A stretch of DNA of 64,000 nt, taken from contig NC_049996.1 in NCBI RefSeq assembly GCF_000003815.2, forward strand, positions 6,156,012-6,220,011. Direction: 5' to 3'. The stretch comes from Branchiostoma floridae. Lineage: Eukaryota > Chordata > Leptocardii > Amphioxiformes > Branchiostomatidae. How positions within the stretch are numbered: the first letter of the stretch is position 1; each line of letters begins with the position of its first letter. The position numbers were made by a program, and so were the translations under genes. The notes under the pieces are model-generated. The model did no database searches. It was not told the DNA's origin and saw nothing but the letters and a program-made list of their open reading frames with translations. Shown one piece after another: positions 1,710 to 53,400 of this stretch.

Positions 1710-4700
1710 CTTGTACATCTTCCTCTGAAATGCCCCGCCACTGTGACACATCTTGACCACTCTCTTGGTCACAGCCAGCCAACAACCGTTCAGCAATCAC
1801 ATCCTCCCATGATGGCACAGTCAGCACATTGGAGTCAGGGGGGGACTCCCGGTATGACGGGTTGTACACCCAGTGTATGCCTCCCCTCAGTGCACCATCC
1901 TGTCCAGTCCTCTTGGGCCTTTTTACTCTTCTCCGAAGCCTTGGGCTGACAATTGGATGTTTCTTCAAGTCTACCTCTTCACTCGATGACTCACTACTAT
2001 CTTTCTGCTCTGCCTTCAGAGCCAGAAGAGAAGAGCTCTTGCGCCGTAGTGTTGGTGAGCGCTGCTGTTTTGGTGATCTTGAGCCCTTTGGTGATCTAGT
2101 ACCAGTTGGCGGTTTCAGCTCGGCTATTTTTTCATTGGACCCAGGTAAAGACTTCTTTCTATTTTTCTGAAATTTCTTTCTTTCTTCTGATGAGGACTCA
2201 TAGGGTGTACTGTCAGTCTTTGACCTTTGACGAATGACGGCTCGACCTTCATAATCTGACAGGTTTGACTCATCTTCTGGTGATGCAACTGTCACTAAGA
2301 CAGAGGCAGGTCTGCCTGCCGACACAGCTGAAGCAGTTCTACAAGATTGTCGAGGTGGAATGTCTGACAATGATGGTTTTAAACTGTGTTCACTCAGAGT
2401 TATTTTCCCTTGCCGGTCTTTCCTCATCTGTGGCTTCTTACCAGATACTCCAGCCAAGTTAGGAGGCAAATCTTTTACATCTACTCCTAAGATTCTAGCC
2501 GCTCGAGACTTGATGTCTTCATCACTGCTGGGTTTATCGTAGATGGGTGAGTCAGTCCATTCTTTAGGTGATGGTGCTTTTGGTAACGGTGGCTTACTAG
2601 CCGTAACACCTGTGTTACTGCGAGAGTCATCTACAGAGAAACTTTTCACTAACCTTTTGCGTCGTTTGGAGGTGTCTTTAACCTCACCACTTTTTTCAGC
2701 TTCTGATTTACATAGATAATCAATTGTATCTTGCTCTAATTTGGCATACATCTGTTCCACCCGGTTCACAGCTGAGCCAAGAGGCATGTGGTTTTCAACA
2801 GCTGCAGCTTTCATAGAAGAGGCATCGGGCATTGTCATTCGACGTTGGGGCTTCCCACTTTTCACATACTTTCTTGGTGTTCTGGCTCCTGCCTGTTTTA
2901 TGACTGGCTGATCTGCAACCTTTTCCTCTTCCTCCTCTTTTGTTGGCTCCATTTTTCCCACAACAGGTGCGTACTCGCCATGTACAGGTGCATATTCTGC
3001 CTGGACAGGAGCATATGCAGCTTGAATGGGTGCATGCTCTGTTGGAGCTTGGGCTCGTGCCTTGGTTACCATCGGCTTTTGATCAGCAGCATCCAAGGAT
3101 GGGCTTTTCTGGAGCAGCATCTTTTTGCGCAATGCTGGGCTACGTTTACTCAAGCCAGGTTTAACAGAAGCCAGTAAATCAGGACTTTCCTTCACCTGTT
3201 TGTCTGTTGTTGTCGTCCCCCTAGTATAAACAGGTGTGTTGGCACCATCACTCTCACTACCAGTTGTGACTGGTGCAGAGAATTCCCCAGCTGAGAGACT
3301 TCTCCTCATCCTTCTGACAGGCTGTTGTTTTGAAGGCCCAGGTGTGGCATCTGTTGGAGGGGTTTGGCAGGAAGGAGGTGTTTTGGAGGGAGAGATGTAG
3401 CCACTGTCACCAAGTTTTGGATTCCCTGAGGGGGAGTACTCCACTTTACGAATTTCTTTGACGTACCTACCAGACTTGTCGAAGTAGTGTTGCTCCTCCA
3501 CCCAATCAAATCCCTTGGAATCTGGCACACTTTTCGGCCTCTCCTTCTTAACCACTGGATCAGCAAAAAAACTGCCAATGTCTCTTACCTGAGCTCTGAG
3601 CTTGACTGGTTCTGGCTGTTCTGTAGTCCTGACAACATAGAAGGCTCCCTGCCCTGGTGGACTGTGTGGTAGGTCACTAGCACCTGATGGAGCTTGAGGC
3701 ACTTGTAAGGCACTAACAGGACTTAGGTTACCATTACCAGATTTTGCTTTTACAGGCTGAGGTTCTACATTAAGTTTACTTGGAGATGCCCCTGTAACTC
3801 TTTTTTCCCCGGAGGGATTAGATACGTGTGATTGGTTTGAAAGCTTTGAGCTAGGCTGGGATGTTGGTGTCACTTTTGTATAATTCTCTAAGTCATTACT
3901 GGTGGTTTCTGCTGTCAATGGACTTTCCGAGTCAGATATTTCTGGCTTAGGACTGACAGTTGGAGCAATTTTGACCATACAAAAGACTCTTTCTCCATGG
4001 TTATTGGTAAGGTCTTGCTCCCCTCCCAAGGCTCTGTCATCAAAGTATCCAACTTTGTCATCACTGCCTTTTGATTTTGAACCATATCTAACAAGATCTT
4101 CACTTGCCTGGGCTTCTGTATTTGCTGTTTCCTGCTTGGTAGGAGAAAGCCGAGAAGTTGGCTGAGTAGGGCTGTACAATTTAGCTCTCTTCTCTGCAGC
4201 AGCTGGTATTTGAAACTTTTCTATGGATTGGGAATCATTGCTATGTCTACCTGTGGTTGAATCAGAGGACTCTTGAGATAATGATCTTTCCCTTGCCATG
4301 TCCAATTTTCGTTTTATCTCTATTGGATGTCTGGAGGGAGAAATGGATTCTGTTCTTTCCTTGGATCTCTCTTGTTCCTTTTCTATGAAATACCTTGATG
4401 ACAGATTGTTATAGTCTTCAACAGACATTTCCAATGACTTCATTCGAGGCCCACGGTGTGTTTCTCTTGATCTCCTCTTGACCAGTGGTGTTGGTGGTTG
4501 GACACTCACTTTTGGTCTTTCTAAACTTGAAGACTTACTGCGAGCATCCTCAGGAATGGGGCTGTGGGAGTGTCTGGAGCTGCGAGGACTGGCCTGAGGG
4601 CTAGGTGAGGCCAGTCCACCTGAGGACATACTAGCAGACTGTCTTCCATCGGTGGAAGGACTAGTTGACTGTACCCTTTCCCTTTCGGGACTTACAGAAA

Positions 4701-18745: not shown

Positions 18746-19279
18746 ACAAACAAACAGACAGAGACAGAAACATAACCTTAGCGAAGGTAATTAGGACGCA
18801 GCACCGCTGCCAACGTGCTGCAGCTTTATTGAGATACCCGCTTAACCCTAAGTGCATGCTACTGGAAAGGGTTGCAGTCATTAGTACGGGACGTCATGCT
18901 GTGGTCCACTGTTCACTGTGCGTGTCAAAAAGAGCTAGGCGAATTTCCATGGTACAATGAACCTGTAAATACTGCACATAGGGTCTGTCATCTCTGTCAT
19001 GACTAGTAAAAGACTGGCTCTTCAGTGAGCTTAACTCGACCGATATCACTTTCACTTCGTTTGGTTTTAAGGGGCAAGTTGTGGAGGCCTACAGAAAGGC
19101 ATTGGCTGTGTATTACGTCGTTTTGGCAGGCCTACATTAAGCTAAGCGAAGAATGAACGATTGCGATCTACATTAGATTCAAGTGGTCATGATTTATGTG
19201 GAATCGAAATAGTGGGCTTAAGTTGAATACAGTATACGTGAAAGATGACGAAAGTCCGCACCAAAAATCTCATAGGGTG

Positions 19280-20890
19280 CAACTAAGTCTGTCCTTGATG
19301 CTGAACACCATCAATACATGAACAACTAAGTCTGTCCTTGGTGCTGAACACCATCAATACATGAACAACTAAGTCTGTCCTTGGTGCTGAACACCATCAA
19401 TACATGAACAACTAAGTCTGTCCTTGGTGTTGAACACTCAATACATGAGCGACTAGGCCTGTCCTTGGTGCTGAACACTATCAATACATGAGCAACTAAG
19501 TCTGTCCTTGGTGCTGAACACTATCAATACATAAGCAACTTAGCCTGTCCTTGGTGTTGAGCACTATCAATACATGAACAACTGAGGCTGTCCTTGGTGC
19601 TGAACACTATCAATACATAAGCAACTTAGCCTGCCCTTGGTGTTGAGCACTATCAATACATGAGCAACTAAGTCTGTCCTTGGTGTTGAACACTATCAAT
19701 GCATAAGCAACTAAGCCTGTCCTTGGTGTTGAGCACTATCAATACATGAGCAACTAAGTATGTCCTTGGTGCTGAACACTATCAATACATAAGCAACTTA
19801 GCCTGCCCTTGGTGTTGAGCACTATCAATACATGAACAACTGAGGCTGTCCTTGGTGCTGAACACTATCAATACATGAGCAACTAAGCCTGTCCTTGGTG
19901 TTGAGCACTATCAATACACGAGCAACTAAGTCTGTCCTTGGTGCTGAACACTATCAATACATGAGCAACTAAGTCTGTCCTTGGTCCTGAACACTATCAA
20001 TACATGAGCAACTAAGTCTGTCCTTGGTCCTGAACACTATCAATACATGAGCAACTAAGTCTGTCCTTGGTGCTGAACACTATCAATACATGAGCAACTA
20101 ATCCTGTCCTTGGTGCTGAACACTATCAATATATGAGCAACTAAGTTTGTCCTTGGTGCTGAACGCTATCAATACATGAGCAACTAAGTCTGTCCTTGGT
20201 CCTGAACACTATCAATACATGAGCAACTAAGTCTGTCCTTGGTCCTGAACACTATCAATACATGAGCAACTAAGTCTGTCCTTGGTGCTGAACACTATCA
20301 ATACATGAGCAACTAAGTCTGTCCTTGGTGCTGAACACTATCAATACATGAGCAACTAATCCTGTCCTTGGTGCTGAACACTATCAATGCATGAGCAACT
20401 AAGTCTGTCCTTGGTGCTGAACACTATCAATACATGAGCAACTAAGTCTGTCCTTGGTGCTGAACACTATCAATACATGAGCAACTAAGTCTGTCCTTGG
20501 TGCTGAACACTATCAATATATGAGCAATTAAGTCTGTCCTTGGTGCTGAACACTATCAATACATGAGCAACTAAGTCTGTCCTTGGTGCTGAACACTATC
20601 AATACACGAGCAACTAAGTCTGTTCTTGGTGCTGAACACTATCAATACATGAGCAACTAAGTCTGTCCTTTGTGCTGAACACTATCAATGCACGAGCAAC
20701 TAAGTCTGTCCTTGGTGCTGAACACTATCAATATAAGAGCAATTAAGTCTGTCCTTGGTGCTGAACACTATCAATACATGAGCAACTAAGTCTGTCCTTG
20801 GTGCTGAACACTATCAATACACGAGCAACTAAGTCTGTTCTTGGTGCTGAACACTGTCAAGACATGCGCAACTAATCTGTCTTTGGTGCT
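19280..20890. repeat. minisatellite, about 37 copies of a 43-bp unit
   Basis: Tandem units read CAACTAAGTCTGTCCTTGG, TGCTGAACACTATCAATACA, TGAG. Copies at the left end (ACCATC, ATGAA) and in the middle and right (ACTATC, ATGAG) form sub-families. Some variants recur with a spacing near 215 bp (five units), such as GGTCCTGAAC at about 19983/20028 and 20198/20241 and GAGCAATTAAG at about 20523 and 20738, which indicates higher-order amplification. There is no coding potential. Confidence 0.95.
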
Positions 20891-29000: not shown

Positions 29001-30726
29001 TTTAAGAATGTGAAGAGAACAGAAGAGTTTTTTTCCAAATATCAACCTCTCGGTGAGACAGTTTGACATGTCATATGTAACTGAGAAAGACAGAAACATC
29101 AGCCGATACAAGTTATGCAAATGAATATCTAATAAGCATAATTGATAAGAAAAATATATTTCAATAGGCAGCAACTTTGAAAAGTTTACATACTTGATGA
29201 AGAATGCCTTCTTTGGTAAGGCAAGACTCATACTTTGACATACTTTGAAGAAAGGTTACTTGTGTAGCCTCCAAATGTGGACCTGATGTTCATAGTTATG
29301 TACATGAGGACATTATTTTCACGGTCAATGTGAAACAAATTACTCGAAAGAGTTAACGTTAAAATCATTAGTAAAGGCCTGAGGTCAAGGAATTCTTGTT
29401 AGTCATTTTACTAAGTAATTTCCTTCTTTTCAGAAATCTGGATATCACACTGCCGTCCTATCCTTTGAGCGGGTCATCACTGATGCAAATTCTCACTTTG
29501 AGAAAAGCAAGTTCACAGCTCCTGTGGACGGCTACTACGTGTTCATGTTCCATGTCATGTTTGACAGTGAGGATGACGGAGGGAAGGTCGATCTGATGAA
29601 GGAAGGTTTCCTACAAACATCCGTGCTCAACCCCCAAGGGCACACCGGCTCACAGGGTTATGCTGGGAACAGCGCTGTCTTACAGGTGACTTGTACACTT
29701 AAGATAAGGGCACAACCCGCCGTACATGCAAATACGTGCCCACGTTTTGGCACGTACTACGTGCCAAAACGTGGACAACCTATTGGGGTCCGTAAGTGGT
29801 AAGTACCGCCTCCGTATGAACTCGTACGGAATCCGACGGATTTGGGAGCACGCAGACACGCCGTAGAACTTTACGTGCAGGCAAAACTTTGTGCGGCCAT
29901 CGGGCTGCGAATCCGCCCTCGTACGTGCCAGTACGAGCGACGCGCCTGCCCTGTACAGCCTGAACGTTTTCAGAAACACGTGGCCTCCCCAAAAACGTAC
30001 TGACAAATTGCACGGTCGGTGGGTTGTGCCCTTAGCTTTAATTAGCGCCTTCAAAGATGTAAGAGACAGAAAAGTGGGTTTGATCTCATCTATTCTATTG
30101 AATTTTCCCGTCAGTATTTGTACAAATGTATCAACATTGTGCATACATCAAATAATGCAAATCTTATCCTCTGCATCCTTTTCTTTTAGAACAATGTAAC
30201 TGTTACTGAGTTTGTGGGACTTAAATGAAGTGCTCGCGGTGATTTTGAGTCTGCGGTGTACGTAGCAACCACCGCGAAAACTGAAAAAAAACCCCACTGC
30301 AAACATGTTTTACAGTAGTAATAGCAAAGGAAAAAAAACGCATGGGAAATTAAGGCACAGTGTATATAACATATAAAACAGAGCACAATATCACACATCC
30401 AAGTGCTTTGTTCGATATTCTTGGAGCTTTTGCCACCATCAATTTTGGTTACATGTGCATTGAGACTCACTAGTCCATGCCAATGCATGCAGGAGTGAAA
30501 ACAAACTATTTTGCCGACATTACTCAATGAAGCTGCATCATTCTGTTGGAGCATAGTATTTTCTTATAAGGGAAAAAGCATTTAAAGTGAAATTAACTTT
30601 TCATGGCTTTTGTACCCACAGGTGAATGAGGGTGGACAGGTGTGGCTTCAGTTCAAAGGAAATGTGTATAGTGACTACACCCTCATCACTTCTTTCACTG
30701 GCTTCCTCATCCGGGAGGGTCATTGA
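23027..30726 (+). CDS. secreted collagen-like protein with C-terminal globular C1q domain
   Basis: Eight exons give 409 aa: 23027-23192, 23853-23941, 24730-24850, 25357-25448, 27654-27822, 28307-28542, 29434-29685 and 30622-30726. All junctions are GT-AG and the phases agree. Residues 1 to about 22 form a hydrophobic signal peptide. A short acidic/Cys segment ([14 protein letters not shown]) follows; its cysteines could link chains. Exons 2-6 encode Gly-X-Y collagen repeats to about residue 275 with a few interruptions, including a GIG break at the exon 5/6 border. The globular C1q domain starts at about 281 (CAFSAV) and shows [27 protein letters not shown] and the closing TSFTGFLI. Proteins of this family form trimers and act as extracellular pattern-recognition or adipokine-like ligands; the family is very large in lancelets. 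An alternative donor at 27812|27813 would drop three codons of exon 5. I cannot assign an orthologue. Confidence 0.9.
25900..27390 (-). pseudogene. broken LINE ORF2 inside C1q intron 4
   Basis: Minus-strand pieces occur in the order expected for one non-LTR ORF2. First comes [13 protein letters not shown] (27390-27100), the segment usually before RT. Then the RT motif [13 protein letters not shown] (about 26880-26830), and finally a C-terminal block [19 protein letters not shown] (26197-26060). Stops and frame changes separate them and a MITE interrupts the middle. It is an inactive relic. Confidence 0.65.
26312..26668. mobile_element. MITE inserted in the LINE relic
   Basis: Left end AAGCCCCGTTTACAAATCA, right end complement AAGCCGGGTTTACAATTCA; both arms continue with CGGCCGA and GAGCTC words. 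About 355 bp, GC-rich, non-coding. Confidence 0.55.
28571..28871. mobile_element. foldback MITE, about 301 bp, TA target site
   Basis: The arms of about 105 bp are near-complementary: GTAAGGTTCTTTAGGCACAA at the left and, complemented, GTAAAGTTCTTTAGGCACAA at the right. Both continue through CTTACTTCCAACGTTTCGAT and GGGTAGAATGACTGGAAAC. TA dinucleotides flank both ends (28569-28570, 28872-28873), as for Tc1/mariner-type insertions. It lies in C1q intron 6. Confidence 0.75.
29703..30037. mobile_element. MITE, about 335 bp, with TTAA at both ends
   Basis: The termini share TAAGGGCACAACCC in inverted orientation. TTAA lies at 29699-29702 and 30038-30041, a possible piggyBac- or Kolobok-type TTAA target duplication. 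The interior holds an exact palindrome around CCACGTTTTGGCACGTA and TACGTGCCAAAACGTGG (29740-29776) and many ACGT words. It lies in C1q intron 7. Confidence 0.6.
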
Positions 30727-30734
30727 GACGTATG

Positions 30735-31515
30735 CTTTGCTGTCCTGTAGCTGGCAAGCAGGACTGAGATGGAAACGTTGCTGTCCTGTAGCTGTCAGAT
30801 AGGACTGAAATGAACATATCGCTATCCTGTAGCTGTCTGATAGAACTGAGATAGACACAATTTGACCTGTAGCTGTCAGATAGGACTGAGATTGAAACAT
30901 TGCTGTCCTGTAGCTGTCAGATAGGACTGAGGTGGACACATCGTTGTCCTGTAGCTGTCAGATAGGACTGAGATTGAAAAATTGCTGTCCTGTACCTGTC
31001 AGATAGGACTAAGATTGAAACATTGCTGTCCAGTAGCTGCCAGATAGGACTGAGATTGAAGCATTGCTGTCCTGTACCTGTCAGATAGGACTGAGATTGA
31101 AACATTGCTGTCCAGTAGCTGCCAGATAGGACTGAGATTGAAGCATTGCTGTCCTGTAGGATCCTGTAGCTGCCAGATTGAAGCATTGCTGTCCTGTAGG
31201 ATCCTGTAGCTGCCAGACAGGACTGAGATGGACAGATTGCTATCCTGTAGCTGTCAGATAGGACTGAGATGGATAGTTCACTGTCCTATAGCTGCCTATA
31301 ATGGATAGGACTGAGATGGACAGATCGCTGTCCTGTAGCTGTCAGACAGGACTGAGATGGACAGATCGCTGTCCTGTAGCTGTCAGACAGGACTGAGATG
31401 GACACATTGCTGTCCTGTAGCTATCAGACAGGACTGAGATGGACAGATCGCTGTCCTGTAGCTGTCAGACAGGACTGAGATGGACACATTGCTGTCCTGT
31501 AGCTGTTGGACAGGA
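30735..31515 (+). repeat. 41-bp tandem array in the C1q 3' UTR
   Basis: About 19 copies begin within about 10 nt of the stop codon. The unit is GCTGTCCTGTAGCTGTCAGA, CAGGACTGAGATGGACA and a short linker. Within a unit, GTCCTGT pairs with ACAGGAC, so the transcript can form a series of short hairpins. Copies at the left are more diverged; the last six are almost identical, pointing to recent growth at the distal end. Confidence 0.9.
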
Positions 31516-31583
31516 CTGCTGTCATGTCATATACTAGTATCTGCATAACTGTAAGAGGAAAGCATCAGTCTGTGTTCTGTGCT

Positions 31584-50441: not shown

Positions 50442-53400
50442 TCAGAGCTGAGTGACACGTATGGATTTCTTGGCCCTTTGACTGCCTCCTTCCCCCTCGT
50501 CCCTCTGTGTCTTAGTCTGCTGCTTCATCTGTAGCCGCAACATTCGCACCTCCTCCTCTTTGGCCTGGAGTACAAAAAGCAAGTCATCAGAGATTAAACA
50601 ACTTCAAGGTTCAAGAACTTTTCATCTCCCTAGGTCTAAGTCAGTAGACATTCTGTGCAATGTATGTTACATCTACAGGTACTCTACAGTATTATAGACA
50701 TGATACTGACCTGGATCCTACAGTACTGTAGAGATGATACTGACCTGGATCCTACAGTACTGTAGAGATGATACTGACCTGGATCCTACAGGTACTCCAC
50801 AGTACTGTAGAGATGATACTGACCTGGATCCTACAGTACTGTAGAGATGATACTGACCTGGATCCTACAGTACTGTAGAGATGATACTGACCTGGATCCT
50901 ACAGTACTGTAGACATGATACTGACCTGGATCCTACAGTACTGTAGAGATGATACTGACCTGGATCCTACAGGTACTCCACAGTACTGTAGAGATGATAC
51001 TGACCTGGATCCTACAGTACTGTAGAGATGATACTGACCTGGATCCTACAGTACTGTAGAGATGATACTGACCTGGATCCTACAGTACTGTAGACATGAT
51101 ACTGACCTGGATCCTACAGTACTGTAGAGATGATACTGACCTGGATCCTACAGTACTGTAGAGATGATACTGACCTGGATCCTACAGTACTGTAGAGATG
51201 ATACTGACCTGGATCCTACAGTACTGTAGACATGATACTGACCTGGATCCTACAGTACTGTAGAGATGATACTGACCTGGATCCTACAGTACTGTAGAGA
51301 TGATACTGACCTGGATCCTACAGTACTGTAGAGATGATACTGACCTGGATCCTACAGTACTGTAGAGATGATACTGACCTGGAGCTGAAGTCGGAGCAGC
51401 TTCATCTGTTCTGCTATCTCCTGCCGCACATCCGCCATGATGGACAGTCTCAGCTGAGGGAAATAGTAACAACTCATGATCTTTCATGACATATCATTTC
51501 ATCGTCAGTTCAAGCAATATACATGGTTAGAAAATCACAATCAACAGCCAGTGATACAGCTGAATATGTTTGTTTGTACTGCATACCATGTCTAATATGG
51601 TGTAACACACCGCTGGTTTGTACTGAAGAGTAAAAGCTGCATATCCGGACAGATCGAATTGATCCACTCACACCGTGAAGGACCCTTACTCTTGTTGCTA
51701 AGTTTGGTGGGTTCGTTTACAAGCTTGAGGTGTGGCTCAAACACGGGCATCCTATCCAAGGGACCTCTCTAACTGAAGCTACAAGTAGGTACTCATTTTC
51801 ACCTCAGTAAAGTGAGGAAATTCAGATAAAGTGCCTTTCATAAGGATACAAATTTGGGGCATATGAGGGGATTCAATCCCTTGACCCCTGGGCTTAGAGC
51901 CATACACCCTACCATATTGCTACACAACACAGCAGAATTCCAATAGTTCATGCCTTGAAGCTTTCAGCTTGGCTGTGACCATTCCTACAACACTAGTCTG
52001 CTTGTTTTTAGTTGTATACATTATGCCCCAGCAATCATTGTACCAGTGTACACAACTCTAAGGTTAGCGTCATACCCTGTGTAGATTCTTATCCATGTCT
52101 CTCTGGCGATCTTCCCTCTCTGTGCTCAGTTCCTCCCGTATCTCCCTGACTTCCCTCTGGAGCTGCTCCCTGTCAGTAACAAGCAGCTCCCCATGTTTGG
52201 GTGTGTCCATGGGAGGGGCCGGGAGAGCTGGGGTGCAGACATTGTGCTGGGTGGCTGGGGTTTGTACCAGGAAAGCCAGTGCCTGCTGCATCTGTCCTTG
52301 TTCCTTCAGCAACTCTATCAACTGGACAGAACAATACTGAACTTCATGCCTGGAACATGTAACCCATTATCAATATCATTGTAATAAGAATAAAGTACTA
52401 AACCATACATTATACATCCATTCTCACCTGGCCCAGGAGTTGTAGCTTAGTCATGGAAGAGGGGGGTTTGTCCGCCAGAAATACTGCTGAGTCCTGGAAA
52501 ACAATTTAAGAAGTGATACATACTTTCAAGTCCTTTTTTATATGCAATGGTACCTGAAATAACTGAATATTACTATCAGGATGTATATTGTTCCATCAAG
52601 TGAAAACAGCCTTTTTGGCAAGGAACTGCTTTAACAGTATATATATATATATATATATATGCTGTAATGGTTTCTAATTAGTACATGTATGAGTCTTAAT
52701 GAAGTAGAGACAGCTGTCATAGCTTTTCCAATCAATCATCAATTTGAAGATTGTTGGACGAGAAAATCAGTAAAAAACTATTCAACAAAAATGACTTTGC
52801 TCTGCACCAAATGGTCATCAGTAATACGGAAATTCCCATGTCCAAAATTACGGTTTCTTTCGAGTGAAAAGGTAGTTATAATAAGAAAATCACGCTGAAA
52901 CCCTTGTGTATTTTTTCAATGCTGGAAATTTCATTAAACCTAACAAGTCTAGCAGCATATCAATTTGCCCCTGAAAATGCAGGAAATGTGGACCTCCTTT
53001 GTAACAGCCCATGGCACTGTGGACATGATGTGGCGCTGTGTGGACATGATGGAAATATTTTGTGGAAACATTGCCCTCAAAACCTTTTTCAATAATAGGA
53101 ATTTCCGTATTGAACTTAGCTTAGTTTACAAGCAAAATGTGTCCCTTGAATGCAGGAAATAGCATTTCAGAGGGTTAGGATTTCAAAATATTTCTGGGGG
53201 TGGATGCCTCTTAACCACTCTAGGATTGTCACACCTTCCACATGCTGAAAATTAGGATAGGAATAGTTCACCCCCCTAAGAAATTTGCTGCTGCTGCTGC
53301 CTTTGTATGGTGTCCACAAACAAACATTAAAACATCTCAGTCTATAGTTAGTGTATCCTGATAACGATTCAGAAGATTGCCCATCGGAATCCATCCAGCA

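Follow-up and report, generated by a model that had tools for sequence, protein, structure and literature searches.

Minisatellites whose repeat unit spans a splice junction have been described in amphioxus under the name of mirages, with the globin genes BflGb6 and BflGb9 as examples (PMC3087553). The accessible part of that paper also cites mirages of Adh3, the units of which measure 10-72 bp, and a second paper, likewise accessible in part, adds PGBD5 and troponin C (PMC3902484). According to these portions of text, AG/GT signals occur in many, not all, of the repeats and represent potential cryptic splice sites, cluster length is variable, and the units at the boundary escape homogenisation (PMC3087553). 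The Adh3 data, together with the RT-PCR results of the globin study itself, suggest that regular splicing is undisturbed (PMC3087553), and the mirages of Adh and troponin C are stated to yield no aberrant mRNAs (PMC3902484). A genome-wide survey of mirages was not found in the literature on amphioxus repeats and introns, searched largely outside subscription journals, so one may exist.

Two further systems are related to these arrays. By analogy, the nearest vertebrate counterpart which we found is the 'sequence stuttering' of chicken dot chromosomes, reported in 2026, in which introns are expanded and some genes copy an exon edge with its donor or acceptor, as far as the accessible text goes (PMC12954441); a word search of the text of this article returned neither 'mirage' nor 'lancelet'. 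Tandem duplication of AGGT has also been described as a route of intron gain (PMC4974935, accessible in part), an idea ascribed to Rogers in a quotation in the accessible part of PMC3087553.

The array analysed here is located in a 64-kb stretch of amphioxus DNA, referred to as the window, and fills most of the last coding intron of a minus-strand gene with a coiled-coil product (Table 1). Tandem Repeats Finder (TRF) delimited it with a period of 34, 19.9 copies and a match of 92%; it accounts for 695 of the 814 intron nucleotides (85%), in a region with a GC content of about 0.44. The host exons are short and coding, and the exon/intron junction is predicted from reading frame and splice sites alone. 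Searches for the identity of the host protein returned nothing usable: neither two exon pieces compared with Pfam, nor a joined stretch of 260 residues (best family Vps52_CC, E 0.042, below the cut-off), nor a PDB sequence search (best E 0.097) gave an assignment.

Table 1. Positions of the array and of its host gene in the window, followed by coding pieces with a database match that end at the first donor of other tandem-donor arrays (designated by contig position or locus number).
Feature	Location	Strand	Basis
34-bp tandem array, 20 copies, 5 nt exonic	50684..51383	minus	TRF and unit decomposition
Last coding intron, 814 nt, GT...AG, acceptor TTGTACTCCAG	50565..51378	minus	
Presumed authentic donor CAG/GTCAGT, first of 20 identical 9-mers	51373..51381	minus	
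Five-unit block of 181 bp, present twice without difference (units 9-13 and 14-18)	50751..51112	minus	coordinates from unit positions
Diverged 3' boundary unit, ending ...CTATAATACTGTAGAGTACCTGTAG; the TRF array end (50684) falls inside it	50673..50716	minus	
Penultimate coding exon of the coiled-coil gene (LRLSIMADVRQEIAEQMKLLRLQLQ), ending TCCAG at the donor	51379..51453	minus	open frame, acceptor TTTCCCTCAG, donor CAG/GTCAGT
Last coding exon, AKEEEVRMLRLQMKQQTKTQRDEGEGGSQRAKKSIRVTQL and stop	50442..50564	minus	
Dynein heavy-chain exon	C1:222k		PDB match of a 21-residue piece; 62-residue piece without Pfam family
Dynein heavy chain, AAA_7	L050		Pfam
TALPID3	L062		Pfam
BAR protein	L064		Pfam, E 0.00027, below Pfam's own cut-off
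Helicase_C; first donor is the variant GTAAGG	L065		Pfam, E 0.0015, below Pfam's own cut-off
Na/Ca exchanger, Na_Ca_ex	L066		Pfam
Condensin subunit 3	L061		PDB

Decomposition of the array into units revealed that CCAGGT occurs 20 times on the minus strand between 50600 and 51410 and that CAGGTCAGTATCAT is present in 20 of 20 units, hence the 9-mer CAGGTCAGT is identical in all of them. In the direction of transcription, these are 20 consecutive CAG/GTCAGTATCAT sites, the first of which is the presumed real donor. The original prediction of an intron-filling 34-bp array with about 20 equivalent donors is thereby confirmed. On both strands of the entire window, CAGGTCAGT was found in 21 copies, 20 of which lie within the array. 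A DNA search of the 513-Mb assembly (513.4 Mb in 431 contigs), which skips simple repeats as well as very common words and therefore does not prove uniqueness, matched the array solely at its own locus, apart from a match of 63% to the reverse strand of the array.

The remaining parts of the unit are less uniform. Four of the 20 units carry ATCATG in place of ATCATC, and the other 16 hold CAGGTCAGTATCATC without change; the acceptor-like CTCTACAG is likewise present in 16 units, TCTACAG in 19, and the perfect 14-bp palindrome CTACAGTACTGTAG in 17. Both an acceptor-like sequence and a palindrome had been ascribed to each unit; they exist, but not universally. Two units are 45 bp long, each with an insert of 11 nt, and the 3'-most unit is diverged. 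Units 9-13 equal units 14-18 exactly over 181 bp, in agreement with the five-unit duplication noted before. As this duplication is exact, it would be recent, and it suggests recent turnover of the array; the claim that the array is still growing holds to this extent and no further.

The relation of the unit to the exon required a correction, because the array does not start exactly at the exon border, as had been proposed, but 5 nt within the exon. TCCAG/GTCAGT was found in 20 of 20 units, and the exonic share of the unit is TCCAG, of which three nucleotides are the donor consensus CAG. Beyond these 5 nt no similarity between exon and unit was detected (1356 of 2000 shuffles were equally good), and a longer exonic origin of the unit was rejected since the similarity is no better than that of shuffles.

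A comparison with the mirages described in the accessible parts of PMC3087553 and PMC3902484 revealed the same organisation. The array is a tandem repeat at an exon/intron junction, albeit a predicted one, and its unit includes the junction and exonic bases, although merely the 5 nt mentioned above. As in mirages, the unit spans the junction and copies the splice signals, so that the array becomes intron; the units are homogenised except at the boundary, where one has diverged, as BflGb6 also shows, and the range of 10-72 bp given for Adh3 takes in the 34 bp observed here. The array differs from the published mirages by the gene concerned, by its 20 near-identical copies and by its perfect 14-bp palindrome, and its unit takes in only 5 exonic nt, whereas globin units measure 150-160 bp.

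The array therefore seems to be one more of the already known amphioxus mirages. We consider it very probable, judging from the sequence, that it is a mirage minisatellite derived from an amplified junction-spanning duplication, which the gene tolerates while using the exon-proximal donor. That the junction itself seeded the expansion, as suggested originally, is the simplest reading of the directly observed junction inside the unit and of the arrays built alike elsewhere in the genome. We infer that a short tandem duplication across the exon/intron junction, comprising 5 exonic and about 29 intronic nucleotides, would have been the starting event, and that ordinary minisatellite turnover by slippage or unequal exchange would have raised the copy number to about 20; the palindrome may help this turnover. 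Exon definition would then select the donor adjoining the exon and the other copies would leave as intron, which we propose as the reason why the gene survives with the array.

The other two systems match less closely. Chicken stuttering, as far as its accessible description goes (PMC12954441), likewise expands short sequences locally into intron clusters and, in some genes, copies an exon edge with its splice site. Its cases are found on GC-rich dot chromosomes and have imperfect units with exon parts of 20-187 bp, whereas near-identical units and a local GC content of about 0.44 characterise the present array; here the intron expansion does copy an exon edge, yet its 5 exonic nucleotides are fewer than the 20-nt minimum of the chicken screen, and the array lies on a contig of 18.6 Mb, not on an avian dot chromosome with very high GC. 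In intron gain by AGGT duplication, according to the accessible part of PMC4974935, a tandem duplication adds a second donor to a gene, as in the window; the intron studied here, however, is already normal-ended, and no new intron was seen.

If the array regulated splicing, its roughly 20 equivalent donors would compete for U1 or permit downstream use, and some transcripts would lack the 40 residues of the last exon. Any score calculated from a 9-mer is equal for all 20 donors by construction as the 9-mers are identical, and the donor is suboptimal: the duplex of CAGGTCAGT with the 5' end of U1 was calculated at -7.7 kcal/mol, compared to -11.8 kcal/mol for CAGGUAAGU. In the predicted RNA pairing, the first donor is not more accessible than the rest (mean unpaired 0.34, against a range of 0.28-0.80 for the other 19), so that hiding of the extra donors by RNA pairing was rejected; the predicted fold of six units is only modestly more stable than that of shuffled ones, 6 of 200 of which reached an equally low value. 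With identical 9-mers and a structure prediction that offers no reason for preferring the first site, exon context or position presumably decides the choice of donor. These properties would suit a regulator, but splicing from each of the 19 donors further downstream would lead to the same truncated protein, which stops after eight extra residues, VSIISTVL, and selection against such use is therefore expected. Transcripts are expected to undergo nonsense-mediated decay (NMD) when the stop lies far enough 5' of a junction, and from the third donor on this distance amounts to 75 nt or more. Published mirages, moreover, are reported without disturbance of regular splicing in the accessible parts of PMC3087553 and PMC3902484. 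A regulatory role is hence unlikely, and the consequences originally envisaged for the last exon, namely noisy donor choice, recursive splicing and U1 titration, are not borne out by the truncated product, the pyrimidine-poor acceptor-like sites described below and the regular splicing of published mirages; U1 titration and recursive splicing are possible but unsupported.

An ordinary intronic minisatellite might also abut the donor by chance, the 5 shared exonic nucleotides then reflecting coincidence and donor consensus. The short exonic overlap and the result of the shuffles agree with this explanation, as does the abundance of arrays that lack donor-like units. In 244 kb of sampled sequence (the window and 180 kb in 18 stretches at round coordinates), we found 13 arrays with a period of at least 12, at least 3 copies and a score of at least 150, and 12 of them, in introns or not, have no donor-like unit, the exception being the array of the window itself; most amphioxus minisatellites thus seem not to be of the donor-spanning kind. 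Chance abutment is nevertheless quite improbable, as the donor itself lies inside every unit and the genome repeatedly shows tandem-donor arrays that start at coding exons. Stepwise or recursive excision of the intron by way of the AG/GT sites of the units is extremely improbable: in each unit, CCAG/GT has the form of an acceptor directly followed by a donor, but the 17 nt preceding it hold 8 pyrimidines, and the acceptor-like sites of a scored four-unit stretch 8-11 of 17, compared to 13 of 17 in the last two real acceptors of the gene, and the intron measures merely 814 nt.

Arrays resembling the proposed mirage were counted in the whole genome by means of tandem donor motifs, with the reversed motif as sole control. 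Three tandem CAGGTAAGT sites with a spacing of 8-38 nt gave 27 hits in 6 arrays and none for the reversed motif. Single CAGGTAAGT sites number 6660, compared to 4814 for the reversed motif (ratio 1.38), and taken alone the excess of triples is weak (P 0.04). Triples of AGGTRAGT are more numerous, with 496 hits against 100 for the reversed motif. The first 100 of these 496 places, covering C1, C2 and C3 to 31.58 Mb (102 Mb), comprise 20 donor arrays, 18 of which are minisatellites, while two (C3:31578985 and C3:7417282, the latter also L060) were excluded, being simple repeats of the GAGT type. The reversed motif yielded 8 loci (24 hits) in the same 102 Mb, all of them TGAA/TGGA microsatellites and none a minisatellite; all of its 100 places in the whole genome contain 13 minisatellite arrays. 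When scaled by 1.38, the single-site ratio of CAGGTAAGT applied here to AGGTRAGT, the excess of donor arrays over the control has a P of about 1e-5; the arrays of both donor and control were counted and sorted into mini- and microsatellites by eye, some control loci being borderline. The distribution of donors along the genome may account for some of this excess.

The exons adjoining these arrays were analysed from 351-nt 5' ends, taken for 18 of the 20 AGGTRAGT arrays; C1:222k was available from the first set, that of CAGGTAAGT, and C3:31578985 was left out. All 18 flanks were read, pieces of 10 were compared with Pfam and of 2 also with the PDB, and the remaining 8 were judged by reading alone. 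The 18 minisatellite arrays correspond to 17 of these flanks plus C1:222k. Among the places listed, at least 7 of the 18 have their first donor at the end of a coding piece for which a database match was obtained (Table 1). Another 4 adjoin a stretch that is coding by reading, namely L051, L055 and L059, for which Pfam gave no family, and L067, without Pfam family and with a weak PDB match (E 0.031). In the other 7 (L052-L054, L056-L058 and L063), an adjoining exon was not seen.

Within the first set of 6 arrays, three exons were assigned by database match, encoding dynein (C1:222k), DNA-PKcs (C13) and SAM decarboxylase (C170), two by reading (C3 and C5, the former with a sub-cut-off Pfam match to Androgen_recep, E 0.038), and one array has no exon. 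The first donor of the DNA-PKcs array is the variant GTGAGA. About 36 nt of its unit match the exon, as judged by eye, and seeding by the junction is therefore plainer there than in the array of the window.

Dynein heavy-chain exons adjoin two separate junction-spanning arrays on C1, L003 (about 222 kb) and L050 (about 230 kb), which lie about 8 kb apart. The two exons look like parts of one gene, which suggests that one gene can hold several mirages.

By itself, the array of the window is one more mirage; the genome count adds recurrence at coding exons. One can speculate that minisatellites originate preferentially at 5' splice sites throughout the amphioxus genome, where duplications across a donor would exceed those of a matched motif several-fold in origin or survival, and that chicken stuttering is the same process. 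We regard this view as tentative and rather doubtful. Its cause might be co-transcriptional processing, or selection which tolerates only those duplications that are silenced by the exon-proximal donor. If it is true, mirages would be a common route of intron lengthening, and the amphioxus mirages would be linked with the chicken stuttering of 2026. Recurrence would also make amphioxus a test bed for the choice of the spliceosome among identical donors and for the growth of introns.

Other arrays were noticed in the course of this work. A 43-bp array of 37.6 copies at 19279-20890 of the window contains 9 Rfam mir-2060 matches, one of them above the gathering score. Named members of this family come from B. 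belcheri, and the match agrees with an amphioxus host, most likely Branchiostoma floridae. In the Rfam consensus, a unit similar to that of the 43-bp array is present twice in tandem, and from this sequence resemblance the mir-2060 family may be a minisatellite yielding small RNAs. The arrays L046 and L048, and also the control places C14:5928474 and C194:27237, contain units with ...TTCAGCACCAAGGA... that are related to the 43-bp array; C194:27237 carries TTCAGTACCAAGAA as well.

Downstream of a C1q-domain exon (29419-29802) in the window, a 41-bp array of 18.7 copies (30737-31518) begins about 10 nt past the apparent stop and is followed by AATAAA sites; from this position it may be a 3'UTR minisatellite. 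Two of the sampled stretches contain arrays of coding-like sequence. In L030 (C1:545500-549500), a 134-bp array of 3.9 copies at 1916-2441 repeats a coding-like stretch together with a minus-strand donor-like CAGGTAAGT and a CAAA tract, and is perhaps a whole-exon mirage. In L031 (C1:1445500-1450500), a 98-bp array of 7.7 copies at 2277-3025 consists of coding-like sequence with (CAAA)n tracts between the copies.
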